A stretch of DNA of 64,000 nt from Leptolyngbya sp. FACHB-321 (GTDB lineage: Bacteria > Cyanobacteriota > Cyanobacteriia > Leptolyngbyales > Leptolyngbyaceae). The stretch is taken from contig NZ_JACJPI010000065.1 of assembly GCF_014695975.1 (NCBI RefSeq), positions 124,001-188,000 on the forward strand, written 5' to 3'. Below, piece after piece: positions 27,684 through 56,709 of this stretch (positions are counted from its first letter, which is position 1; each line of letters opens with the position of its first letter). The position numbers and the translations under genes are program-made. Below the pieces are notes generated by a model that was not told where the DNA came from, searched no databases, and worked only from the letters and a program-made list of their open reading frames with translations.

Positions 27684-28904
27684 ATGACATCCGTTTCCCC
27701 ATCGATCGCCCCCCTCAGTTGGTCTGAGCTAGAAGCCCTGACGACTTTTCAAATCGATCCTGTCAATGGCGCTACTAACGCTCAAGCGCGTTTACGTCTC
27801 TTTGGTCAAACTGAAGCCGACGTGCGGGTCACGCTCTACCGTGACAACCATGCCTGGTGCCCCTACTGCCAAAAAGTTTGGCTATGGTTGGAAGAAAAGC
27901 AAATTCCTTACCGCATCGAAAAAGTAACGATGTTTTGTTATGGGGAAAAAGAAAGCTGGTACAAACGCAAAGTGCCATCAGGTATGCTGCCTGCTCTGGC
28001 GCTAGACGATCGCCTCATTACTGAAAGCGATGACATCCTGCTTGCATTGGAGCAAGCCTTTGGTCCATTGGGGCTGGGCATGAAGCATCCCACAGTGTTG
28101 CCTTTACGCTACCTAGAACGGCTGTTGTTTCGCTCCTGGTGCGCTTGGCTCTGCTATCCATCGAATTCGATACGGCAAGAACAGGGAAACCGCGAGCAAT
28201 TCACAAGCGTTGTTGCCAAAGTTGAAGCGGCGCTGGCTGCTACGCCGGGTCCTTATTTCCTGGACGAGTTTGGCACAGTTGACGTTATCTTTACGCCTTA
28301 CGTTGAACGGATGAATGCCAGTCTTTACTATTACAAAGGCTATTCTCTACGTGAGTCCAACCCAAAACTGTCAGACTGGTTTGCAGCGATGGAAAGCCGA
28401 TCGACCTACCGGGGCACTCAGAGCGATTTCCATACTCATGTGCATGATTTGCCGCCCCAAATGGGAGGCTGCTGGGAAAACAGTGAACCACAAACGCAAA
28501 TTAACAAGGCGAGAGTTGATAATGGTCCCTGGGATGGGCTGCCGGATGTGATGTATCCAGAGCCAGAAACCGCCCGTGCTGAAGCACTTCACCGGGTAAT
28601 CAAGCACCGCGCCAATTTGATTCGCGTCAACCCTGCTGACGACAGGCTGATAGATGAAGCCTTGCGCTGTGCTCTGACCAACCTGATGACAAACCAGCTT
28701 TGTCCACCGCCAGCCGGGTCTGATAGCGCTTTACGCTACTTGCGCGATCGCATTAATGTGCCGCGCGATATGTCGATTTATGCCGCCAAACGGTTGAGGG
28801 CATCGTTGGAAGCAACGGCTGCATTGGCTGGCGATCGACAAGGTCCACCCATTCCGGTTAAGCATCGGCGAGACCAGAATCCTGCTGACTTTGCGACACG
28901 GTAA
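27684..28904 (+). CDS. Glutathione S-transferase-family protein, long form
   Basis: A 406-aa protein, about twice the usual GST length. After a roughly 45-residue N-terminal region comes a thioredoxin-fold domain with a CPYC redox/GSH site (Cys59, Cys62 in [11 protein letters not shown]), the cis-Pro region GMLPALAL and [14 protein letters not shown]-terminal helical domain follows (about 130-270). The last 130 residues (from [14 protein letters not shown]) are charged and helical and I do not recognise them. It could be a thiol transferase or glutathionyl-hydroquinone-type enzyme. The function is unknown. Divergent from rbcL; AAAGG lies upstream of the ATG. Confidence 0.83.
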
Positions 28905-29809: not shown

Positions 29810-30164
29810 TTGTACTCAGGTTCAAAACGCAACGCGGCTTGGCTTTCACCGCTTAAATAGTTAGGACTAAACCCTGACGGCTGGTGGCTGAGAAATTTTC
29901 TTGATCTGAGCGATCGGTAGCAAGAGGTTAGTCCCAATTCTCCTACAAATTTCTCGGCTGACTGAACAGCCGCTTAAGCCAGGATGACAGCCCGCAACGG
30001 CATCGGTCCTGTTTCTGTAGCTTTCACGACAAATCGAGAGCAGTCTCTCCCGTACAAAATAAAGCCTGACTGTTCTTTAAACAGTGTCTCTGGCGGTTGT
30101 GATTACCTTACGTCTGACCCTGCGTTCTCACCTTTCGCTGTTCATATCATCGAGGCTTGTGTTC
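29810..30164. promoter_or_regulatory. Structured leader upstream of the amidase operon
   Basis: 355 bp without a gene. It contains three inverted repeats: GCTGAGAAATTT (29887-29898) against AAATTTCTCGGC (29947-29958, 11 of 12 pairing, 48-nt spacer); CGGCTG-ACTGAA-CAGCCG (29955-29972); and ACTGTT/AACAGT (30069-30085, 5-nt loop). No NtcA or Zur consensus was recognised. The first two overlap, so alternative folds are possible; regulation is an inference. Confidence 0.4.
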
Positions 30165-31520
30165 ATGAGGAGTGCTCTCAAGAAATTATTTAGGATGAAG
30201 TTACCGAAGTGGCTGGGACTTGGGTTCATAGTGGGCGCGATCGCCTTTGCAACCTCTGCGTTTGCTCAACAGGCACTCGAAATTAACCCGAAGCTGACCG
30301 CTCAAATGCGAGTCACAAATGCCAGCTTTCCGGGCACCGTCCATCTGCTGCCTGCAACGCTGGAAACAACGCAGTGGGGCTGGTTTAACAACGCTCAGCC
30401 GCCTGTACTGTCCATCAAATCTGGGGATACAGTGGTGGTGGAAACCATGATGCACTCCCACAATCAGGTGGTGCCAGGGAAGACGATCGAGGAACTCAAA
30501 AAGCTGCGTACCGACTTTCCTGGACGCGGACCGCACACGCTCACTGGTCCCATCTTTGTGGAAAGCGCAGAACCGGGTGACGTGCTGAAGATCCGCATTC
30601 TTCGGGTTACCCCCCGATCCTATGCTGCGAACTTCAATATTCCCGGCATGTTTGGTCTCTTCCCCGACCAGTTTCCCGATGGGCAGGTGAAATATCTTTA
30701 CCTGGATCTGGAGCGCAAAGTGGCGCAGTTCAGCAAAGGCATTGAAATTCCTTTGGCTCCGTTTCCAGGGACGTTGGGGGTTGCCCGTGCAGAGCCTGGG
30801 CAGTATAGCTCGGTACCACCTGGTCCCTACGGCGGCAACCTGGATATTCGTGATCTCACCGCTGGCTCAACCCTGTATCTACCAGTATTTGTGAAGGGTG
30901 GACTCGTCTGGACGGGCGATTCTCACGCTGCTCAAGGGAATGGCGAAATCAATTTGACGGCGTTGGAAACGGCCTTTAAAGAACTGGTGCTGAATATTTC
31001 GGTAGTTAAAGGACAGAAGCTCGATTTTCCTAGAGGGGAGACGGCTAAAGATTGGATCACGATCGGCATCGACGAAGACCTAAACAAAGCTCTCGAAAAT
31101 GCCAAAACCGAAACGGCGAAATTCTTGGCAGACCAGCGCAAAATCTCGATTGAGGACGCGACCAAACTCATGCCCCAGGTGTCTGACTGTCGCATTTCGC
31201 AGGTTGTGAATCGTGTGCGTGGCATTCACTGTTTGAACCCCAAAACGGTACAGGCGAAGAAGACGGTGCAGTATCCCACCACCAGCAACGCAGAGTACTA
31301 TGTCGCAGCGGCAAGCGGCAAAGACCTGAACGCTGTGATGAAGAGTGCTTCGATGTCACTGATCGAGTTGCTGCAAGAGAAGGAAAAACTGACGCGTCTG
31401 GATGCCTACGGGCTAACCAGTATGCGAATGGACTGCCGCCTGAGCAAGCTGACTGCTGACGAAAAAGGGCTTTCCTGCCTGCTGCCGAAGAGCCTCTGGG
31501 TTGGGAAGCGAACCGCATGA
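30165..31520 (+). CDS. Secreted acetamidase/formamidase-family protein
   Basis: A 451-aa exported amidase-like protein. A basic start and hydrophobic segment (WLGLGFIVGAIAFATSAFA) form a signal peptide. The body matches acetamidase/formamidase: SIKSGDTVVVETMMH, GPHTLTGPIFVESAEPGDVLKI, PGTLGVARAEPGQYSSVPPGPYGGNLDIRD (read in parts) and LVWTGDSHAAQGNGE. These enzymes hydrolyse small amides to ammonia. The C-terminal part holds two similar units (ISIEDATKL..SDCRIS and LTRLDAYGL..MDCRLS), so the tail looks duplicated. I choose the ATG at 30165 for its GAGG 9 nt upstream; ATG 30195 is an alternative. It overlaps the next gene by 4 nt (ATGA). Confidence 0.85.
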   Translation: MRSALKKLFRMKLPKWLGLGFIVGAIAFATSAFAQQALEINPKLTAQMRVTNASFPGTVHLLPATLETTQWGWFNNAQPPVLSIKSGDTVVVETMMHSHNQVVPGKTIEELKKLRTDFPGRGPHTLTGPIFVESAEPGDVLKIRILRVTPRSYAANFNIPGMFGLFPDQFPDGQVKYLYLDLERKVAQFSKGIEIPLAPFPGTLGVARAEPGQYSSVPPGPYGGNLDIRDLTAGSTLYLPVFVKGGLVWTGDSHAAQGNGEINLTALETAFKELVLNISVVKGQKLDFPRGETAKDWITIGIDEDLNKALENAKTETAKFLADQRKISIEDATKLMPQVSDCRISQVVNRVRGIHCLNPKTVQAKKTVQYPTTSNAEYYVAAASGKDLNAVMKSASMSLIELLQEKEKLTRLDAYGLTSMRMDCRLSKLTADEKGLSCLLPKSLWVGKRTA

Positions 31521-32443
31521 TGGGTCTCTGGCGTTTGGTGCTGGCAGTGCTGCTGTGGTGGGGCTGCTGGCAAAGCCCTGTCGCGGCTGTATCGCTTAAA
31601 GTTGTCACGACGACCTCAGATCTTGCCAGTCTGGTAACGGTTGTTGGGGGCGATCGCGTCAGCGTCAGCAGCATTGCCTTACCAGCCCAAGATCCGCACA
31701 CGTTTGAACCCCGACTAACTGATGTGCAACAACTGCGATCGGCGCAACTGGTCGTCAAAGTTGGACTGGATCACGATTTGTGGCTCGATCGCCTGACCCA
31801 GGAAAGCGGCAATCCTGCCTTACAGCGAGGTGGGGCTGGGTATGTGGATGTCTCGACAGTTATTCCTCTCCTCGAAGTTCGTTCTGTCAGCCTTGCGCCT
31901 TCCGATGGACACAATCACGGTGCGGGAAATCCCCACTATTGGCTTGACCCCTTGAATGCTGATGCGATGACTGGGATTATTGCGGCGGCACTGGCACAAA
32001 TTGATCCAGAGAGCAGCAAGACCTACGAAGCGAATCGCCTGATCTTTTTAGCCACCCTGGAACAAAAGGTCGCCGAGTGGCAGCGCCAGCTAGCACCCTA
32101 TCAGGGAGTTCCGTTAATCGCCTATCACAACAGTTACCCCTACCTGGCACGTCGCTTTCGGCTCAAAATCATTGATTTCATCGAACCACGACCGGGAATT
32201 CCGCCCAGCCCGTCCCATCTCACAAAATTGCTGCGAGAGATGAAGGATGAACACGTCCCAGTGGTAATTCAGGAACTGTATGAGTCCGATCGCGTGCCTC
32301 GCCTTTTAAGCAACCGCACGGGCGCAGCGGTAGTGACGCTTGTTTCTTCCGTGGGTGCTATTCCTGAAGTGCCCAATTATCTCTCCCTGTTTGATTACAA
32401 CGTTCATGTGCTGGCAACGGCGCTAGGGAGACCGAAAGTCTGA
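31517..32443 (+). CDS. Metal ABC transporter substrate-binding protein (ZnuA-like)
   Basis: A 308-aa cluster-A-I solute-binding protein for Zn or Mn. A signal peptide precedes VSLKVVTTTSDLASLV. Likely metal ligands are His61 (DPHTFEP), His140 (NPHYWLDP), His204 (AYHNSYPYL) and an acidic residue near 253-258. A short His-containing loop (DGHNHGAGNPH) precedes the second ligand, as in zinc-binding ZnuA. Metal identity cannot be fixed from sequence. Its ATG overlaps the amidase stop and its own stop overlaps the permease ATG (TGATG), so the three genes are translationally coupled. Confidence 0.9.
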   Translation: MMGLWRLVLAVLLWWGCWQSPVAAVSLKVVTTTSDLASLVTVVGGDRVSVSSIALPAQDPHTFEPRLTDVQQLRSAQLVVKVGLDHDLWLDRLTQESGNPALQRGGAGYVDVSTVIPLLEVRSVSLAPSDGHNHGAGNPHYWLDPLNADAMTGIIAAALAQIDPESSKTYEANRLIFLATLEQKVAEWQRQLAPYQGVPLIAYHNSYPYLARRFRLKIIDFIEPRPGIPPSPSHLTKLLREMKDEHVPVVIQELYESDRVPRLLSNRTGAAVVTLVSSVGAIPEVPNYLSLFDYNVHVLATALGRPKV

Positions 32444-33750
32444 TGTCTGATGCGCTACAACTGCTCACCATTCCCTTTCTCATTGCCCTGGTACTCACGG
32501 GCATTCACACCTATTTGGGCATTCACGTTCTCACGCGCAACATTATCTTTGTGGATCTGGCGCTGGCGCAGATTTCGGCTCTGGGCGCAACAGTCGCGTT
32601 CATGCTGGGCTATCTGCCCCAGTCGATCGCCGCCTATAGTTACTCCCTTGTTTTCACCATCATTGGAGCCGTCATTCTCTCCTTTAGCCGCCAGTGGACG
32701 GGGCGAGTCTCGCAGGAAACATTTATCGGCGTGGTGTACGTCGTGTCAGCAGCGGCAGCGTTTCTATTAGTAGACAAAGCCCCACAGGGCGCAGAACACA
32801 TCAAGCAAATTCTGGTGGGTAGCCTTCTTACAACTACAGAAGCAGATTTGTTCAAAGTTGTGTTGCTTTACAGTGCGGTTGGCGTATTTCACTGGTTCGC
32901 TCGCAAGCAGTTCATCCAGCTTTCCTTTCAGCCAGAACAAGCGGCGCAAACGAATAGACGAATCTGGTTCTGGGATTTTTTGTTCTACGTCTCCTTTGGC
33001 GTGGTCGTCACGAGTTCCGTTGCCATTGCTGGTGTGCTGCTCGTGTTCTGCTTTTTAATTATTCCAGCCGCAATCGGCACACTCTACAGCACTTCAATTT
33101 TGGTTACGCTGCTCATTGGCTGGACGATGGGAACGCTGGCAAGCACGATCGGTCTGGGTGCCTCCTACGTTTGGGACTTGCCGACAGGGGCAACGATCGT
33201 CTGTGTGTTTGGTGCAGCGCTGGCTTTAGCCGCAGTATTGAAACCAGTCCTTCTCACCTCACCGGAGCAACGCCGCACGGTGCTTGCCAAAGCCCTTTCA
33301 GGCGTGCGAACGGGTGGTTTTATGGTTCTCCTAATATCCGGCTGTTGGCTAGCCATCAATCCTCACGCCGATCAGCCTTTGCTCAATTTGATGGAAACCT
33401 ATCAGCCCGCTGTCCGCTCTGCATTTTTATCCGATGAGGAACAGCGCCTGTTAGACCAGGCAATTAACGGAGCAGACCGTTTGCGATCGGAAATCAACCA
33501 TCTGGGCTCGATGGAACAAACGAGCCGCTGGCAAGGGGAAGAAATGACCGGAGATGACCTGCGCCGCGTCACAGGCTATACCCTCACGTTTCAAGAAATG
33601 GAAAAAGGAGAACAGTTCGTTCAGCAAACCATGCGCTACAAAGCCCGCGATCGTCAGCGTTGGGTGATTGGTATTCCCCTGGCTCTATTTTCCCTTGGCT
33701 GCTTACTGCTGCAAGCATCTGCAAGCGAAGCCTTTCTCCCGGACAATTGA
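32443..33750 (+). CDS. Metal ABC transporter permease (ZnuB family) with C-terminal extension
   Basis: A 435-aa protein. Residues 1-275 are an ABC-3 family permease: many helices, FVDLALAQISALGATVAF near the N terminus and VAIAGVLLVFCFLIIPAAIGTLY in the middle, the segment contacting the ATPase. About 150 further residues are unusual for ZnuB/MntB. They comprise a membrane helix (GGFMVLLISGCWLAI, about 294-308), a polar roughly 95-residue section with DEEQRLLDQAINGADRL, and a final helix (WVIGIPLALFSLGCLLLQA). It is the last gene of the coupled trio. No ATPase gene is adjacent, so an ATP-binding partner must come from elsewhere. Confidence 0.88.
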   Translation: MSDALQLLTIPFLIALVLTGIHTYLGIHVLTRNIIFVDLALAQISALGATVAFMLGYLPQSIAAYSYSLVFTIIGAVILSFSRQWTGRVSQETFIGVVYVVSAAAAFLLVDKAPQGAEHIKQILVGSLLTTTEADLFKVVLLYSAVGVFHWFARKQFIQLSFQPEQAAQTNRRIWFWDFLFYVSFGVVVTSSVAIAGVLLVFCFLIIPAAIGTLYSTSILVTLLIGWTMGTLASTIGLGASYVWDLPTGATIVCVFGAALALAAVLKPVLLTSPEQRRTVLAKALSGVRTGGFMVLLISGCWLAINPHADQPLLNLMETYQPAVRSAFLSDEEQRLLDQAINGADRLRSEINHLGSMEQTSRWQGEEMTGDDLRRVTGYTLTFQEMEKGEQFVQQTMRYKARDRQRWVIGIPLALFSLGCLLLQASASEAFLPDN

Positions 33751-50361: not shown

Positions 50362-51009
50362 CTAAGTCCCACCCAACCTGCTATCGGTTATGGCGTTCAA
50401 ACCGCTGCTCAACGTAACAGTCGTGTTTAGCAACTGCTGATACTGTGCAGGCGTATCTAAATCAATCGCTCCCTTTGGGAAGGATACCTGAAAAACTTTT
50501 TCAGCGTGCTGTTTGATTAAGTACTTAGCACCAACGTTTGCATTCATTCTCCTTAATTCTGTAAATAGAGACCGATCAAACAAAGCAGGCACGCCGATCG
50601 TGTCTGCATAGGCAGAGGCAATAATGGGGTGTTGCGTTGCTCGATAGGACGTGACTAATTGATCGAGTAAAGGAGCGGAAACAAACGGTTGATCACAGAG
50701 AACAATGACGACTGCGTTTAGATGCTGATCAAGGGTTGTGAGTGCTGTTATGCCAGCGGCGATGGAAGTGCCCATACCGTCTGCCCACTGCGAATTTTCC
50801 ACGACATGCAGGGCGAGTCCATCAACCTCTAACGTCATGCGTTCTGCATGTGAACCCAGTACAACCACAACCGGATTACAACAAGAAGCGATCGCCACTT
50901 CAGCCATGTAGCGCAATAAGCTCCGCCCCTGAAACGGTAACAATTGCTTGGGTGTTCCCATGCGGGTAGATGCGCCTGCTGCCAAAATCATTAAGCCAAT
51001 GGTAGACAT
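50362..51009 (-). CDS. MocA-like molybdenum cofactor cytidylyltransferase
   Basis: A 215-aa nucleotidyltransferase. The GT-A signature LAAGASTRMGTPKQLLPF is at the N terminus, followed by VVLGSHAERM, WADGMGTSIAAGI and VLCDQPFVSAPLL. MocA attaches CMP to molybdopterin to make the cytosine dinucleotide cofactor used by xanthine-oxidase-family aldehyde oxidoreductases such as PaoABC. This agrees with the structural genes upstream. It overlaps the xdhC gene by 19 nt and is the last gene of the operon. Confidence 0.88.
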   Translation of the reverse strand: MSTIGLMILAAGASTRMGTPKQLLPFQGRSLLRYMAEVAIASCCNPVVVVLGSHAERMTLEVDGLALHVVENSQWADGMGTSIAAGITALTTLDQHLNAVVIVLCDQPFVSAPLLDQLVTSYRATQHPIIASAYADTIGVPALFDRSLFTELRRMNANVGAKYLIKQHAEKVFQVSFPKGAIDLDTPAQYQQLLNTTVTLSSGLNAITDSRLGGT

Positions 51010-52148
51010 AGGCGCTCTGGATTGGGGTCATGAATGGGTGCATTGCGGTCTCTCAGCATCCCGCCAGTATGGTTAGTCAAAACAGCTTGAATTTCTGCCA
51101 CGATCGCCAACGCAATTTCTTCAGGGGTTTCAGCACCCAAATCAAGCCCAACTGGATGATAAAGGCGTTGCTGTTGAGCGTTAGTAGGAGCAAACCCTTT
51201 GAGGCGTAAGTCTTCCAGCAATTGTTGTGTGCGCTGTTTTGGTCCCAGTACTCCTAGATATTGAAGAGGCGAGGGTAAGAGCGATCGCAATAAGGCTTGA
51301 TCATACAAATAATGATGCGTCATTACAACCGCGATCGTGCGTGCGGTCAGCGTGAGGTTCGCTGCAAGCTCGTTTGAACTACAAAGTATGACTTCATCTG
51401 CTTGTGGGAAACGATCGCGAGTTGCATACGTCGCTCGATGATCAATGACGGTGACATGCCAGCCAAGCTGCTTTGTCAATTGCACCAATGGAATGGCATC
51501 ATACCCTGCCCCAAAAATTAGCAGCGGTGTCGGTGGCTGAATAACTTCAATCAGCACTTCCACAAAACCATTATCCAACTGATAGGAAATAACTCGCGTT
51601 TTCCTTTCTGCAAGTACCCGAGCGGTATCCTGCAATAAAGCCATTGTCAGTTGATGATCCGCAATACGATTGACAACTGTACCATCAGATTTCAGGCATA
51701 ACCGATCGCCAATTTGAGCAGCTACGTTTCCTTCGATGTGGAAGATGGTGGCGATCGCGACTGGTTCTTTTTGCTGAAAACAGTCTGCAATCCATGCAAG
51801 TTGGCTCTTAGCAGAGTCTGTATGCAGCGACTCAAGCAGCACTTGAACAAAGCCGTTACAGCCCATGCCCAAACCCCAAATTAAATCATTACTGGCAGTA
51901 GTATCGTATTGTACAGTGATTGGCTTGGATGCTTGAAGCAATAGTGGTTTTGCCCGTTCAAACACATCACTTTCTAGACAGCCGCCGCTAATGGCTCCTA
52001 CTATTTGACCCGCTTCGGTTAACAACATCCGTGCGCCTGGTCTGCGGTAGACAGAACCCATTGTTTTGACAACGGTGGCGATCGCTGATCGTTGACCAGA
52101 ACGCTCACTCTGTTCAAATGCCTGAAGGATCGCTTGTAATTCTTTCAT
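50991..52148 (-). CDS. XdhC/PaoD-family molybdenum cofactor insertion protein
   Basis: A 385-aa XdhC/CoxI-family protein. The N-terminal domain has VVKTMGSVYRRPGARML and ISGGCLESDVF, the motif region holding the conserved Cys; the C-terminal NAD-like Rossmann domain has LLIFGAGYDAIPLVQL and VMTHHYLYDQALL. XdhC/PaoD proteins bind mature Mo cofactor, mediate sulfuration and load it into the apoenzyme. It lies 25 bp downstream of the ABM-domain membrane gene and overlaps the MocA-like gene, so it belongs to the same transcript. Confidence 0.9.
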   Translation of the reverse strand: MKELQAILQAFEQSERSGQRSAIATVVKTMGSVYRRPGARMLLTEAGQIVGAISGGCLESDVFERAKPLLLQASKPITVQYDTTASNDLIWGLGMGCNGFVQVLLESLHTDSAKSQLAWIADCFQQKEPVAIATIFHIEGNVAAQIGDRLCLKSDGTVVNRIADHQLTMALLQDTARVLAERKTRVISYQLDNGFVEVLIEVIQPPTPLLIFGAGYDAIPLVQLTKQLGWHVTVIDHRATYATRDRFPQADEVILCSSNELAANLTLTARTIAVVMTHHYLYDQALLRSLLPSPLQYLGVLGPKQRTQQLLEDLRLKGFAPTNAQQQRLYHPVGLDLGAETPEEIALAIVAEIQAVLTNHTGGMLRDRNAPIHDPNPERLCLPLA

Positions 52149-52173
52149 TCCATTGATGAGAAATAAACGTTCT

Positions 52174-52761
52174 CTAATGCTTGCTGGCGCTGCGAGATGA
52201 AGCTGGGTAGAGCCAAAAATTCAGCAGCCAGATCAACCAGGGCATCACCGGGTAAGTTAATAATGCAGACACAAAGGTGACTGATACAAATAAACCCAAC
52301 CAGTGAGGCAATGGTTTCAACAATTGTCCCAGCAGTACATCTGCAAGCAAAATGAGTGGATAAACCGCCAGGATACCGAGAACAACATTCTTGTAATAAG
52401 CAGGCCGAGGCAGTGGGTCGGCAGCCTTTGGCGATAACGAAAACCACACTTCAACACCACCAAACTGCTGCTGTGAGCGATCGATCAACAAATCACGACC
52501 CTTCTCAACCCACTGCTGGAAGGTTGGAGAGGTTCGCCAAGCTCTGAAATGGGCGTAACTGTCAAACTTTACAATCACCACGTATTCAGGATGGGTATGA
52601 TCACGAGGACGAATCACATTCACCCCCAGGAAACCTTCAAATTGTTGAGCCGCCTGATTAAACCCTCTAGACCAGGCTTCATACGCTTGAATACAATCTG
52701 GTGCAACAACCTCTGAGATGACTAATGTAATTGGATCGGATGGTCGATCGAAGTTTTCCAT
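52174..52761 (-). CDS. ABM-domain protein with C-terminal membrane helices
   Basis: A 195-aa protein. The N-terminal half is an antibiotic-biosynthesis-monooxygenase-like ferredoxin fold (ITLVISEVVAPDCIQAYEAW; VIVKFDSYAHFRAWRTS), followed by two or three hydrophobic segments (NVVLGILAVYPLILLADVLL; LGLFVSVTFVSALLTYPVM; WLIWLLNFWLY). ABM-plus-membrane proteins are widespread but uncharacterised. Its placement between the aldehyde oxidoreductase catalytic gene and the maturation gene is suggestive. A role in substrate handling or electron transfer at the membrane would be inference. Confidence 0.82.
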   Translation of the reverse strand: MENFDRPSDPITLVISEVVAPDCIQAYEAWSRGFNQAAQQFEGFLGVNVIRPRDHTHPEYVVIVKFDSYAHFRAWRTSPTFQQWVEKGRDLLIDRSQQQFGGVEVWFSLSPKAADPLPRPAYYKNVVLGILAVYPLILLADVLLGQLLKPLPHWLGLFVSVTFVSALLTYPVMPWLIWLLNFWLYPASSRSASKH

Positions 52762-52889
52762 AACAAGCGGTTGATCGACTGAGAAATGTCGATTGGGCTG
52801 GATCTACGAAACCCAACCGACATCAGCAGCTCTGTATGTCTTCAAGTTGGCAAGAGCCAGGATTTGAAGGTGTGTAAAGCAACTTAAGT

Positions 52890-55004
52890 TTACGCAATCA
52901 ACTTATCAGGAGTGAGTGGCAAGCTGCGGAGACGTTTGCCCGTTGCATGATAAACCGCATTGGCAATGGCTGCCGAAACACCCGTAATGCCAATCTCACC
53001 GACACCACGCACACCCGCCGGATTGAAGTTCAGGTCTGGTTCGCCAACAAAAGCAACATCAATGCGGGGCGTATCGGCATGGGCTGGGAAGTGGTAGGTC
53101 GCCAGATCGTAGACGACGGGATACCCTGTATTCGGGTCAAAATGGCATTCCTCCATCAGCGCTTGCCCGATGCCCATTATCACGCCACCACGTACCTGAC
53201 TAGCAGCGGCTTTAGTGTTGATGATACGCCCAACATCCATCACCGATACCCATCGAGTTACACGTAGGCGTCCGATCGCTTCATCAACACTAACTTCACA
53301 GAAGTGGGCACCCCAAGATTGAAACGCCCATTTTTTCGTTTCGTCACCGGGAGCGGAAGAAGCAGAGGCTTCGATCGCCGCCCGTCCCGACTTTTGAAGC
53401 GCTGCACAAGCTTCAGTCCCCGTTGTACAGTTAGCAGTTTTCAGGATATCTTGACAGGCTTTCATCACCGTTGGGACGAGGGATGCGGTCATTTGGGAAC
53501 CACCTGCCAGTCCACCATCGGGCAACTGCGAGTCACCCATCTCCACCCGCACCTTTTCAACCGGAACACCTAATGTTTCGGCGGCGGTAATGGCAACTAC
53601 AGTGTATGATCCCGTGCCCATGTCATTGCCAGAGGTAAGGACATGGACGGAGCCATCTGGGAGCAGGCGTACTTTTGCCGAGGTTTTGCCACGGAAACCA
53701 GGGAACGTGGCAGCCGCCATGCCCCAGCCGATGAGCTTACCATCGCGGGTAAGCGATCGTGGCTGGGGTCTGTCTTTCCAACCAAAGCGCTCCGCCCCAA
53801 CTTTGAGGCAGTCAGCAAAATGCTTGGCGGAGAATGGCAAGCCCTTACGCTGATGCTCTTTGGCTTCGTTCTTGAGCCGTAGTTCGATCGGGTCGAGCTT
53901 TAGCGCCCAGGCAAGTTCATCCATCGCTGACTCTAGTGCCCACATACCCGGAGCCTCACCTGGTGCCCGCATGAAGGTCGGTGTGCCAATGTTCATCACT
54001 GCTAGCTCTTGGTTGAGCAGCAGATTGGGAGCGGTGTACATAGCTGGAGTGACCGAGGTACAAGGCTCTGTAAAGACCTCTACAGGCGATGTGCTGGACT
54101 TCACTTCATGGGCGATCGCGCTCAACATCCCATCTGCTGCTGCTGCTAGCCGAACGGTTTGCTCTGTTTCAGACCGATGTCCAGCATTGGCAGTTACCTG
54201 TCTCCGGCTAAGAACAACTTTCAAGGGACGCTTGATCTGACGAGCAGCAGCGGCAGCTAGAATGCCGTGAGGCCAAGGGAAGGCTTTAGAACCGAAGGCT
54301 CCCCCCAAGTAAGGGATGATAATGCGGACTTTTTCGGAGGGCAGCCCAAACAGTTCAGCATAGGTGCGCTGGCTCAAGGCAACAAACTGGGACGGTTCGT
54401 AGACCGTGAGGGCATCTGTCCCCTGCCAGTGGGCAATGATGGCGTGGGGTTCCATTGGTGCATGTAGTTCAGTCGAAGTCGTGTAGGTTGCCTCCATCTT
54501 AGTCGCGGCACCTGCCATACCTGCGGCAACATCTCCCTTCACAAACTTAAACTCCTCACCCATCTGAGGCGGCGCTTCTTTGAAGACGGCATTCTTCGCC
54601 TCGATCGTGGGCTTCTGGGCATCGTACTCGACCTTCACCAGGTGCGCGGCGTGTCTTGCTCGTTCAAAGGTGTCTGCAACCACTAAGCCAATAATTTGCC
54701 CAGCGTAATGAATCTGGTCATCGGAAAGGGGCAACCGGGCCTCATAGATTTTTGAGGTCATGAAGTTGTTGCTGGGCTTAAATACCTTGGGGGCGTTCTT
54801 GTGTGTAAAAACCGCAGTCACGCCGGGAGCCTTTTCTGCCTCGCGGGTGTCGATCGCCTTGATGCGACCCTTTGAGATCGTCGATGTAACCACAACCCCA
54901 TGCACTAGCCCTGGAACGTCATGTTCTGCCGAGTAGGTCGCCGTACCTGTGACTTTTGCGTAGCCGTCTTTGCGGTTGACCGCTGTTCCAATCACCTTGC
55001 TCAT
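52890..55004 (-). CDS. paoC: Aldehyde oxidoreductase molybdenum-binding subunit (PaoC-like)
   Basis: A 704-aa xanthine-dehydrogenase-family catalytic subunit. Family blocks: GTATYSAEHDVPGLVHGV near the N terminus, MEPHAIIAHWQG, PYLGGAFGSKAFPWP, FMRAPGEAPGMWALESAMDE and GNDMGTGSYTVVAI. Near the end is GVRGVGEIGITGVSAA, carrying the catalytic Glu. By family it holds the cytosine-dinucleotide Mo cofactor and oxidises aldehydes, often aromatic ones. There is no signal; as in E. coli PaoABC it would be exported with the Tat-signal-bearing PaoA-like subunit. It overlaps the upstream paoB-like gene by 4 nt. Confidence 0.92.
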   Translation of the reverse strand: MSKVIGTAVNRKDGYAKVTGTATYSAEHDVPGLVHGVVVTSTISKGRIKAIDTREAEKAPGVTAVFTHKNAPKVFKPSNNFMTSKIYEARLPLSDDQIHYAGQIIGLVVADTFERARHAAHLVKVEYDAQKPTIEAKNAVFKEAPPQMGEEFKFVKGDVAAGMAGAATKMEATYTTSTELHAPMEPHAIIAHWQGTDALTVYEPSQFVALSQRTYAELFGLPSEKVRIIIPYLGGAFGSKAFPWPHGILAAAAARQIKRPLKVVLSRRQVTANAGHRSETEQTVRLAAAADGMLSAIAHEVKSSTSPVEVFTEPCTSVTPAMYTAPNLLLNQELAVMNIGTPTFMRAPGEAPGMWALESAMDELAWALKLDPIELRLKNEAKEHQRKGLPFSAKHFADCLKVGAERFGWKDRPQPRSLTRDGKLIGWGMAAATFPGFRGKTSAKVRLLPDGSVHVLTSGNDMGTGSYTVVAITAAETLGVPVEKVRVEMGDSQLPDGGLAGGSQMTASLVPTVMKACQDILKTANCTTGTEACAALQKSGRAAIEASASSAPGDETKKWAFQSWGAHFCEVSVDEAIGRLRVTRWVSVMDVGRIINTKAAASQVRGGVIMGIGQALMEECHFDPNTGYPVVYDLATYHFPAHADTPRIDVAFVGEPDLNFNPAGVRGVGEIGITGVSAAIANAVYHATGKRLRSLPLTPDKLIA

Positions 55005-55990
55005 GCGATCCCTCCTCCTTTGGCTGAAACGGTGAGGGCGCGTCTAATCGCCCGCTTTGCTAATTCAACTTTGAAGCCGTTGTATTCAAGGGGCTTGGCT
55101 CCTTTCAGGGCGATCTCTGCTGCCTGCTGAAACGTTTCGGTGTTTGCAGCTTTGCCTATGAGAAATGTCTCCGCTTCCGTAAAGCGCCAGGGTTTATGTG
55201 CCATGCCACCCATTGCCAACCGTGCTGTTTTGATGCGGCTATCCGCAAGCTCGACTGCCGCTGCGACCGAAACCAGTGCAAAAGCATAGGAGGCACGATC
55301 ACGCAACTTGAGATACACACTGGACTTGGCAAACGGGGCAGGGGGCAAGATCAGCGCTGTAATGAGTTCTCCCGGTTCTAGATTCGTGTCCCGTTGCGGA
55401 GTATTGCCGGGTAGTCGATGGAAATCCGTAAAGGGAATTTGGCGCTTGCCTTTGGAACCTTCCACTTCCACGATCGCATCCAGCGCTGCCAGTGGCACAC
55501 ACATATCAGAGGGATGCACTGCCACGCACTGATCGCTGGCTCCGAACAGGGCGTGGATGCGGTTAATGCCAGTTAAAGCGGCACAGCCGGATCCGGGTTC
55601 CCGCTTATTGCAGTCAAAAGCAGTGTCGTAGTAGTAGGGGCAGCGTGTGCGTTGAAGCAAGTTGCCGCCCGTCGTTGCCACATTGCGAATTTGCTGAGAC
55701 GCTCCCAGCAGAATGGCGCGTGCCAGCATGGGGTAGCTGCGCCGAACTTCGGGATGGTCGGCAACGGCGGTGTTGCTCACCAGAGCACCCAGGCGCAGAC
55801 CGTCTTTTGTCTGCTCAATGCGGGTCATGTCTAGGCGAGTGATGTCGATCAGTTGGGACGGCTCATCTAGAAAAACCTTCATGCGATCGACTAGATTGGT
55901 GCCACCTGCAATAAACATTGATTGAGGGATCGATGCTTGCTGGACTGCCTCTTTCACCGACGTCGCGCGAACATAGGAAAAGTTTTTCAT
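55001..55990 (-). CDS. paoB: Aldehyde oxidoreductase FAD-binding subunit (PaoB-like)
   Basis: A 329-aa FAD subunit of the xanthine oxidase family. The FAD motif MFIAGGTNLVDRMK is near residue 25; the AATGGNLLQRTRCPYYYD-type region (here ATTGGNLLQRTRCPYY) is followed by FDCNKREPGSGCAAL. Those cysteines match the extra loop that in E. coli PaoB binds a [4Fe-4S] cluster. The C-terminal CO-dehydrogenase-like domain ends KRAIRRAL. It passes electrons from the [2Fe-2S] subunit to FAD. It overlaps its neighbours by 4 nt on each side. Confidence 0.92.
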   Translation of the reverse strand: MKNFSYVRATSVKEAVQQASIPQSMFIAGGTNLVDRMKVFLDEPSQLIDITRLDMTRIEQTKDGLRLGALVSNTAVADHPEVRRSYPMLARAILLGASQQIRNVATTGGNLLQRTRCPYYYDTAFDCNKREPGSGCAALTGINRIHALFGASDQCVAVHPSDMCVPLAALDAIVEVEGSKGKRQIPFTDFHRLPGNTPQRDTNLEPGELITALILPPAPFAKSSVYLKLRDRASYAFALVSVAAAVELADSRIKTARLAMGGMAHKPWRFTEAETFLIGKAANTETFQQAAEIALKGAKPLEYNGFKVELAKRAIRRALTVSAKGGGIA

Positions 55991-56709
55991 GCCGAGACTC
56001 CTGCTTCGCGCACCAACATCGCTGCCGCAGGAGACGGTGGCGTTTGTCCGGTTACCTGCTGCACCGCTGCGACAATCCCGTTGTAAGCACTACAACGACA
56101 GAGATTACCGCTCAGACGCTCTTTGATTTCAGCTTCCGAAAGATTTGTCAGTTGGGGAGGACTGGTCAAATCTGCCGTCATAGCGCTGGCGCAACCTCGC
56201 TTCACCTCATCCAGAAGCGCAACAGAGGCGCAAATTTGCCCAGGAGTGCAGTAGCCACATTGAAACCCATCGTTCTCAATAAAGGCAGCCTGAACGGGAT
56301 GCAGCGTATCTCCCTTTGCTAAGCCTTCAATCGTAACAATTTGCTTACCCTCTTGCATGACTGCTAGCGCGAGACAGGAATAGACCCGCTGCCCATCCAC
56401 CAATACTGTGCAAGCTCCACATTGTCCGTGGTCGCAGCCTTTTTTGCTGCCAGTTAGCTCCAGTCGTTCGCGGAGGGCATCCAGCAGCGTCACCCTTGGT
56501 TCGATCGCCAATGTTTGTGACTGACCATTAATGTTAAGGGTTACAGACATTTCACCTTTCCCTGAAACTGGGGATGGCTTTCCAGGTTGAGCAGCAGTGG
56601 CTTGATTGAGCAATGAGGGAGCCGCGATCACGGTTCCTGCTGCCGTCAATGCCTGCCCTAGAAAGTTCCGTCGCGTTTTATGTTTCTGACTATCTTGAGG
56701 GGGATGCAT
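55987..56709 (-). CDS. paoA: Aldehyde oxidoreductase [2Fe-2S] subunit with Tat signal (PaoA-like)
   Basis: A 240-aa iron-sulfur subunit. A twin-arginine signal (KTRRNFLGQALTAAGTVIAA) leads to a plant-type [2Fe-2S] domain (GCDHGQCGACTVLVDGQRVYSC) and a C-terminal second-cluster domain (CGYCTPGQICASVALL; GNLCRCSAYNGIV). Both cluster motifs are complete. The Tat signal implies that the folded heterotrimer is exported to the periplasm or thylakoid lumen. It is the first gene of the operon with paoB, paoC, the ABM-membrane gene, xdhC and mocA-like downstream. Confidence 0.93.
   Translation of the reverse strand: MHPPQDSQKHKTRRNFLGQALTAAGTVIAAPSLLNQATAAQPGKPSPVSGKGEMSVTLNINGQSQTLAIEPRVTLLDALRERLELTGSKKGCDHGQCGACTVLVDGQRVYSCLALAVMQEGKQIVTIEGLAKGDTLHPVQAAFIENDGFQCGYCTPGQICASVALLDEVKRGCASAMTADLTSPPQLTNLSEAEIKERLSGNLCRCSAYNGIVAAVQQVTGQTPPSPAAAMLVREAGVSA

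Follow-up and report, generated by a model that had tools for sequence, protein, structure and literature searches.

A secreted amidase linked to a ZnuA-like binding protein and an ATPase-free ABC-3 permease: a candidate ATP-independent metal-transfer module

The closest described relatives of the locus analyzed here are the ATP-binding cassette (ABC) importers ZnuABC, MntABC and PsaBC, and the omr-znuAII-znuBII cluster of Vibrio. The locus lies in a 64,000-nucleotide stretch of contig NZ_JACJPI010000065.1 of the cyanobacterium Leptolyngbya sp. FACHB-321 (hereafter the window), and consists of three genes for a secreted acetamidase/formamidase-family protein (AMD), a periplasmic binding protein (SBP) and a permease (PERM). 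The trio shares with ZnuABC, MntABC and PsaBC a ZnuA/MntC-type SBP, an ABC-3 permease with a PsaC-like fold and zinc-type ligands, but it has no ATPase gene and its permease bears a changed polar signature. Moreover, the ATPase-docking loop is eroded or shortened in the ATPase-free clade to which PERM belongs, and the amidase-linked branch adds a C-terminal part on the permease as well as the amidase partner. The trio thus appears to be an amidase-linked lineage within an offshoot of the ABC-3 (ZnuB/MntB/PsaC) family that has no ATPase. We consider it probable that it is a transfer module for zinc or a similar metal that needs no ABC ATPase, in which the SBP feeds an ATP-independent permease and the amidase is a periplasmic partner. 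An earlier sequence-only reading of this DNA had suggested that the set might not be a standard importer; the missing ATPase and the conserved linkage agree with this view. Loci, genomes and contigs are cited below by our own L, G and C numbers.

The Vibrio cluster (VP_RS21430-21420 in V. parahaemolyticus) is represented in our sample by the barrel-SBP-permease locus of V. campbellii (L060), which the tree places in one ATPase-free clade with PERM. It differs from the trio in having an outer-membrane barrel in place of the amidase, in two Zur-type boxes upstream of the V. campbellii genes, and in a docking loop of 15 residues, as against the full length in PERM. One report states that V. campbellii has the omr-znuAII-znuBII cluster, lists the receptor, ZnuA2 and ZnuB2 with no ATPase among them, and describes 1034-, 543- and 283-fold induction of the V. 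parahaemolyticus genes by zinc limitation (PMC9817125). According to the abstract of another, the ZnuA homolog vpa1307 aids growth of V. parahaemolyticus VP3218 under zinc depletion (PMC3794297); from its authors and strain, we infer that this paper is reference 21 of PMC9817125. The ABC-3 family and the Vibrio relative are therefore already known, the latter being treated in print as a zinc transporter. In searches of the open-licence literature, which leaves out most subscription papers, no title or abstract opening among the papers listed mentioned that the ATPase is missing, that the loop is shortened or that an amidase is linked. The Vibrio Zrg system was rejected as a relative, its ZrgC being an annotated ATPase.

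The three genes of the trio are as follows.

30165..31520, + strand: AMD, secreted acetamidase/formamidase-family protein, 451 amino acids (aa); Pfam PF03069, E 1.6e-32
31517..32443, + strand: SBP, ZnuA/MntC-type periplasmic binding protein, 308 aa; Pfam PF01297, E 1.8e-55
32443..33750, + strand: PERM, ABC-3 permease of the ATPase-free clade, 435 aa; Pfam PF00950, E 7.5e-29

AMD and SBP overlap by 4 nt (ATGA, 31517-31520), and SBP and PERM have 1 nt in common within TGATG (32441-32445). The start of AMD was taken as the ATG at 30165, as in the sequence-only reading, whose three head-to-tail genes with these overlaps agree with the coordinates and the Pfam assignments; a mechanical list of open reading frames (ORFs) begins AMD at a GTG at 30084. 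None of the three proteins reached an NCBIfam cut-off. No ABC ATPase was recognized among the window ORFs of at least 150 aa, which were judged by eye.

Scanning a genome collection with PERM yielded 21 loci, in 13 of which AMD, SBP and PERM occur in the same order and on the same strand: three in cyanobacteria (L011, L012 and L014), nine in Betaproteobacteria (L015, L017-L023 and L030) and one in Rokubacteria (L016). Among the others, L013 begins inside PERM, with the upstream genes outside the contig, and seven have no amidase. Contig ends truncate L013, L015 and L030. No partner ATPase was found in the 13 trio loci, although L015 and L030 stop at the end of PERM or shortly behind it, which leaves their downstream side uncovered. 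ATPases also occur in L023 (74 and 78 bits, opposite strand, at about 2-3 kb) and in L017 (at about 7 kb), but these do not look like partners. The ATP-binding component, noted from the letters alone as missing from both sides, is lacking in the window and in the covered DNA of the homologous trio loci; the gene order, which that reading had proposed to follow in other genomes, recurs without an ATPase in 13 further loci, and neither an ATPase adjacent to the homologous genes nor an unconserved linkage was found. A local gene loss or an assembly gap was rejected, because the pattern recurs across phyla. The trio is rare in the phylum of the window: among 386 sampled genomes, the only full-length match was the window's own, with five short-form matches (E <= 1e-20).

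To survey the wider clade, we used a profile built from 15 ATPase-free permeases. At E <= 1e-30, it matched 41 of the 274 genomes sampled from the class to which Lacisediminimonas and G397 belong; one of them (G457, locus L143) has an adjacent ATPase, leaving 40, G397 included. In wider stretches around 40 matches in the other 39 genomes (L171-L210), a gene for an outer-membrane barrel, SBP and PERM stand in order in 38, and the remaining two (L187 and L189) are truncated by contig starts. The same set was found in Myxococcota, Bdellovibrionota, Kiritimatiellota (L025), a Sulfurovum plasmid, Vibrio campbellii and four more members of the window's phylum. No Pfam family scored above cut-off in five barrel genes scanned, two of which had sub-threshold porin matches; the name rests on these matches, on similarity among members and on the name "outer membrane receptor" of the Vibrio gene. 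Because most loci of the clade have the barrel upstream of SBP and PERM, the amidase sits in the slot of the barrel. The proposal that the genes form a module for a periplasmic amidase thus holds in part: the amidase linkage recurs, but the SBP-permease core is far wider and usually stands behind an outer-membrane barrel gene.

We then placed the permeases on a tree of 77 sequences (rows), with a single row for each locus and label, so that L031 appears without its second permease, and with identical rows and those under 200 aa (L029 and L030) removed. A branch with 100/99 support parts 62 ATPase-free rows (13 amidase-linked and 49 further ones) from the 15 of a conventional side, where all 12 rows with an adjacent ATPase lie; the other three on this side are L010, on a short contig, and the orphan conventional permeases L084 and L117. 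The window permease (row L003) lies inside the supported ATPase-free clade. The tree carries warnings about long branches, one of which separates the two sides, and its deep forks are weakly supported. In the flanks covered, an ATPase of at least 85 bits within 3 kb of the permease was found in none of the 62 clade rows; bits refer to a model made from two ATPases of the window's genome, with a threshold of our choosing, and 3 kb was available on both sides in 45 of the 62 (46 counting the window itself). A weaker ATPase, of 49 bits, lies 231 bases downstream of the L179 permease and comes with its own FetB-like partner. Slightly farther out than 3 kb, L205 has an OppDF-like protein and L192 the ZnuC belonging to a complete znu locus.

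The loop that would dock an ATPase was compared as well; its position in PERM is as follows.

32902..32961, + strand: position of the docking (coupling) loop of PERM, residues 154-173; length retained, conserved Gly lost (AAQTNRR)

We take this loop to be the ATPase-docking element, as in type II importers. On the conventional side, the loop stretch is 34 residues long and carries the Gly in 15/15 rows. By contrast, 34 residues are kept in 19/62 ATPase-free rows (the 13 amidase-linked ones, L013, L024-L027 and L088), and the other 43 have 15-31. At least three separate shortenings (L028, L031 and the rest) are counted by the starred branches, and five by the drawn topology. Within the 14 rows of the amidase branch, identity is 0.43 in the loop and 0.59 in the rest of the domain (ratio 0.73), as against 0.38 and 0.32 (ratio 1.19) in 14 conventional permeases. 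The comparison suggests that the loop is under weakened constraint in the amidase branch. In the orphan conventional permeases L117 (G386) and L119, which is the same as L084 (G389), the loop and its Gly are intact, with no ATPase of at least 85 bits in about 4-6 kb on each side and a 67-bit one 4 kb away in L119. An intact loop is as expected if these permeases continue to need an ATPase, in a contrast of two cases only.

These data bear on whether PERM is an ordinary ABC-3 permease that is powered in trans, with an ATPase taken from a different importer of the cell, as the sequence-only reading had also suggested. All 14 rows of the amidase branch retain the loop length, eight of them with the Gly, and the orphan permeases show that conventional permeases that may borrow an ATPase exist. 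In addition, the genome of the window (6.7 Mb in 91 contigs), whose RuBisCO and closest neighbors on the tree fit a cyanobacterium, has three ABC-3 permeases, namely PERM and two conventional ones that each adjoin their own ATPase, and a FecE-type ATPase. The last, the third-best match (C62:223487), adjoins two FecCD-type permeases and was rejected as an orphan MntA/ZnuC-like ATPase; the lone ZnuC/MntA gene that the earlier reading had envisaged was not found in this genome. On the other hand, sister branches have a shortened loop, and conservation of the amidase-branch loop falls below that of its surroundings, opposite to conventional permeases.

The genomes of the relatives also speak to this question. 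A PF00950 search of the 20 host genomes of L011-L031 found a conventional ABC-3 permease in seven and none in 13 (G390-G399 and G402-G404, among them the named strains Keguizhuia sedimenti R-40 and Lacisediminimonas profundi CHu64-6-4). Four of the 13 (G393, G396, G398 and G402) have extra weak matches outside the clade (20-27 bits), three of which lie in FecCD-type loci (L133, L134 and L166); the fourth is G393:C334, at 20.2 bits. ATPase matches in the 13 hosts score up to 139.5 bits, and partner ATPases of conventional permeases 136-491; since these ranges overlap, family and gene context were needed to separate them. By profile matches, family names and gene context, no Znu/Mnt-type ATPase was found in the 13 hosts, among matches at E <= 1e-30 or E <= 1e-34 and with 150 of 265 candidates scored in G396 and 150 of 154 in G393. 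The ATPases nearest to the Znu/Mnt profile are FecE, heme or corrinoid types beside FecCD permeases in G391, G393, G396, G397, G399 and G402, LivG in G395, LptB and CysA in G392 and G394, and GldA-like in G403; G390, G398 and G404 gave no match at E <= 1e-34. In Keguizhuia (G392), the matches at E <= 1e-30 are LptB and CysA only. All nine such matches in G397 could be named (heme/corrinoid type, LptB, CysA, YejF, DrrA-like and four LivG/UrtD-like); one reading frame (L112, 188 bits) holds two ATPase domains and is closest to YejF in NCBIfam. The FecCD partners in L167 and L168 also match the MntA model, but more weakly than the heme/corrinoid models. Most hosts without a conventional system have FecE/heme/corrinoid-type ATPases of related type II importers, a point in favor of borrowing. 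Nevertheless, because relatives of the trio live in genomes in which no conventional permease or Znu/Mnt-type ATPase was found, and because the loop is under weakened constraint or shortened in sisters, borrowing is disfavored, and we regard it as rather unlikely overall; it retains more room in the window's genome, with its two conventional ATPases and a loop of full length.

The permease itself retains the features of its family. Its ABC-3 domain spans residues 9-263 (PF00950, 101.5 bits against a cut-off of 20.1), and an AlphaFold2 model (mean pLDDT 83) has a PsaC-like fold, with PsaC (7kyp) as the best PDB match (E 4.8e-12, TM (target) 0.81). Comparison of the clade with the conventional side revealed a changed set of polar residues, all five of which are present in PERM.

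32506..32571, + strand: polar signature of PERM in its first helices, H22, D38 and Q43, from clade versus conventional counts
32716..32796, + strand: signature residues E92 and E118 of PERM (E118 within a GAEH motif), from the same counts

H22 is present in 58/62 clade rows and 0/15 conventional-side rows. D38 occurs in 61/62 and 0/15, with an Asp one position later in 11 of the 15 conventional rows. Q43 is found in all 62 clade rows and in 2/15 conventional ones, the other 13 having His. E92 likewise occurs in 62/62 and 2/15, and E118 in 60/62 and 0/15. The conventional Asp and His of the H22-Q43 helix region presumably coordinate metal in PsaC. Two conventional-side rows, L010 and the ATPase-bearing L143, have both Q43 and E92, and they pair on the tree; to judge from their residues, this lineage with the Gln and Glu of the clade may be an intermediate.

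PERM further carries a C-terminal part that is present in the amidase-linked branch.

33253..33747, + strand: C-terminal extension of PERM, residues 271-435, from alignments and the secondary structure of the model

The extension runs for about 165 residues past the ABC-3 domain, with helices predicted at 274-305 and 370-430 around a helical part; from the charges flanking the helices in the model, the part between them is probably periplasmic. The permeases of L024 and L027 have a C-terminal extension unlike that of the amidase branch, His-rich in L027. L031 (7965-9668) has two tandem ATPase-free permeases behind one SBP, possibly forming a heterodimer.

A periplasmic extension would also suit a protein that transports nothing, that is, a membrane scaffold or metal sensor that anchors a complex for metallating the amidase (or the barrel) in the periplasm, with the SBP as metal chaperone there. 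All the remaining parts are periplasmic or in the outer membrane, and the amidase has no other obvious need for a permease. The conserved H22, D38, Q43, E92 and E118, together with the PsaC-like fold, suggest instead a path through the membrane, and Vibrio ZnuA-II is reported to support growth under zinc depletion (PMC3794297). We judge the scaffold quite unlikely.

The metal was approached through the SBP. As expected of a cluster A-I metal-binding protein, it matches PF01297 (ZnuA) over the whole profile (188.7 bits; cut-off 29), as well as 51 distinct sequences of solved structure, and it has the three-His zinc-type pattern H61, H140 and H204, together with E223. Across 15 amidase-linked rows (L076 and L023 come from one genome, which is counted twice) and 44 other ATPase-free SBP rows, H61 is altered only in L015, H140 only in L088 and H204 never; Glu 223 is present in all 59, as against 1/5 ATPase-linked rows. 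Together with the zinc links of relatives (the Vibrio clusters above and L192 below), these ligands make zinc the likely metal of the amidase-linked branch. With two consensus patterns and up to 3-4 mismatches, no Zur box was found within 500 bases upstream of AMD in the window. In one genome, a complete zur-znuC-znuB/znuA locus adjoins the operon of a barrel, an SBP and an ATPase-free permease (L192, 335-6778; names from ORF reading).

The lack of a good Zur box upstream of the trios would also agree with the reverse direction, in which the ATPase-free permease releases cytosolic metal to the SBP for metallation of the secreted, possibly metal-dependent enzyme held in the same operon. Against such an exporter, zinc limitation induces the Vibrio relative (PMC9817125), and the related systems lie behind an outer-membrane barrel and once stand beside zur-znuCB/znuA, all of which fits uptake. 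Export is therefore highly improbable.

AMD scores 113.3 bits against PF03069 (FmdA_AmdA; curated cut-off 27), and its relatives in the PDB are 2ii1, 3tkk, 3b9t, 2f4l, 5ubu and 2wkn. It resembles the acetamidase/formamidase family (PF03069; 2ii1, 3tkk and 2wkn) in this domain and in a conserved GDSHxxQGNGE-type region, but differs in being secreted and in its fixed operon with an SBP and a permease. It also scores far under the cut-off of the FmdA equivalog (80.9 against 500 bits). Read by eye, the N-terminus is signal-peptide-like (about 30165-30266, ending FATSAFA|QQ). Alignment of the trio amidases showed a C-terminal unit with paired Cys (DCRxSQVV...GIHC), of which the cyanobacterial form has two copies. 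The sequence-only reading had called acetamidases metal enzymes, a premise that found no support in our analyses or in the literature consulted: nothing usable on metal dependence of FmdA/AmdA was found in open-licence sources, including passages of PMC5353710. In L015 (501-3149), two tandem amidase genes stand upstream of SBP and PERM.

Taken together, the data suggest the following mode of action, in which transport, its direction and its energy source, the metal of this branch and the role of AMD are what we infer. The SBP would capture a divalent metal, most likely zinc, in the periplasm and pass it to PERM. PERM would take the metal through the inner membrane with no ABC ATPase involved, acting either as a carrier or as a gated pore and driven by the metal gradient, the membrane potential or protons, along a path through the rebuilt polar residues H22, D38, Q43, E92 and E118. 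AMD, whose gene is translationally coupled to that of SBP here, probably acts beside SBP and PERM in the periplasm, perhaps held by the extra C-terminal domain of PERM; it might be a client that receives the metal, or might cleave an amide-type ligand and so free it. Permeases that work without an ATPase include the binding-protein-dependent secondary transporters of the TRAP/TTT type and solitary BioY. These are unrelated to PERM, and the likeness would be one of working mode only, if PERM is ATP-independent. A broader history, in which an ABC-3 branch lost its ATPase, dropped the docking element several times later and became an SBP-dependent, ATP-independent zinc transporter, with one branch recruiting a secreted amidase, either to release the metal from an amide ligand or to receive it, seems to us evenly balanced between right and wrong.

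Several observations weigh against ATP-independent transport by the trio. We know of no transport assay for any member of the clade. For 16 of the 62 ATPase-free rows, one flank is shorter than 3 kb because the contig or stretch ends there. The loop is of full length in the amidase branch (Gly in 8/14) and in L024-L027 and L088 (Gly in 5/5), and where it keeps this length an ATPase could still make contact. The host of the window has two conventional ABC-3 ATPases, and metagenome-assembled genomes make up 11 of the 13 hosts in which no conventional system was found. Upstream of 13 trio loci (window included; some gene starts are approximate), only poor Zur-like matches, with 3-4 mismatches, were obtained, in 5/13. 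Finally, according to PMC9817125, V. parahaemolyticus has conventional ATPases, and a single mutant of VP_RS21425 (the SBP) in RIMD2210633 grew like the wild type, so that its authors give this SBP a minor role.

Proteins of the clade are annotated as "metal ABC transporter permease". If they are ATP-free, 40 of the 274 sampled genomes in the class of Lacisediminimonas carry a zinc-type system whose energy source has so far been assumed, and the clade would be an example of an ABC permease turning into another kind of transporter, a categorically different one if ATP-independence is shown. Members whose loop is naturally shortened offer a way to test the coupling step of type II importers. The trio also poses the question of why a secreted amidase stays tied to metal delivery across three phyla.

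In the surroundings of the trio, promoter-like and terminator-like sites between 29700 and 34100 did not rise above the level of shuffled sequence, Rfam gave no match between 29000 and 34500 at gathering thresholds, and PADLOC gave no match. A GST-domain protein is encoded upstream of the trio in the window (27684-28904), and one is encoded downstream of it in L012 (10255-11454). Farther away in the window, on the - strand (50362-56709), lies a molybdenum hydroxylase-like set (large, FAD and Tat-signal 2Fe-2S subunits) together with XdhC-like and MobA-like genes, all named from ORF reading.

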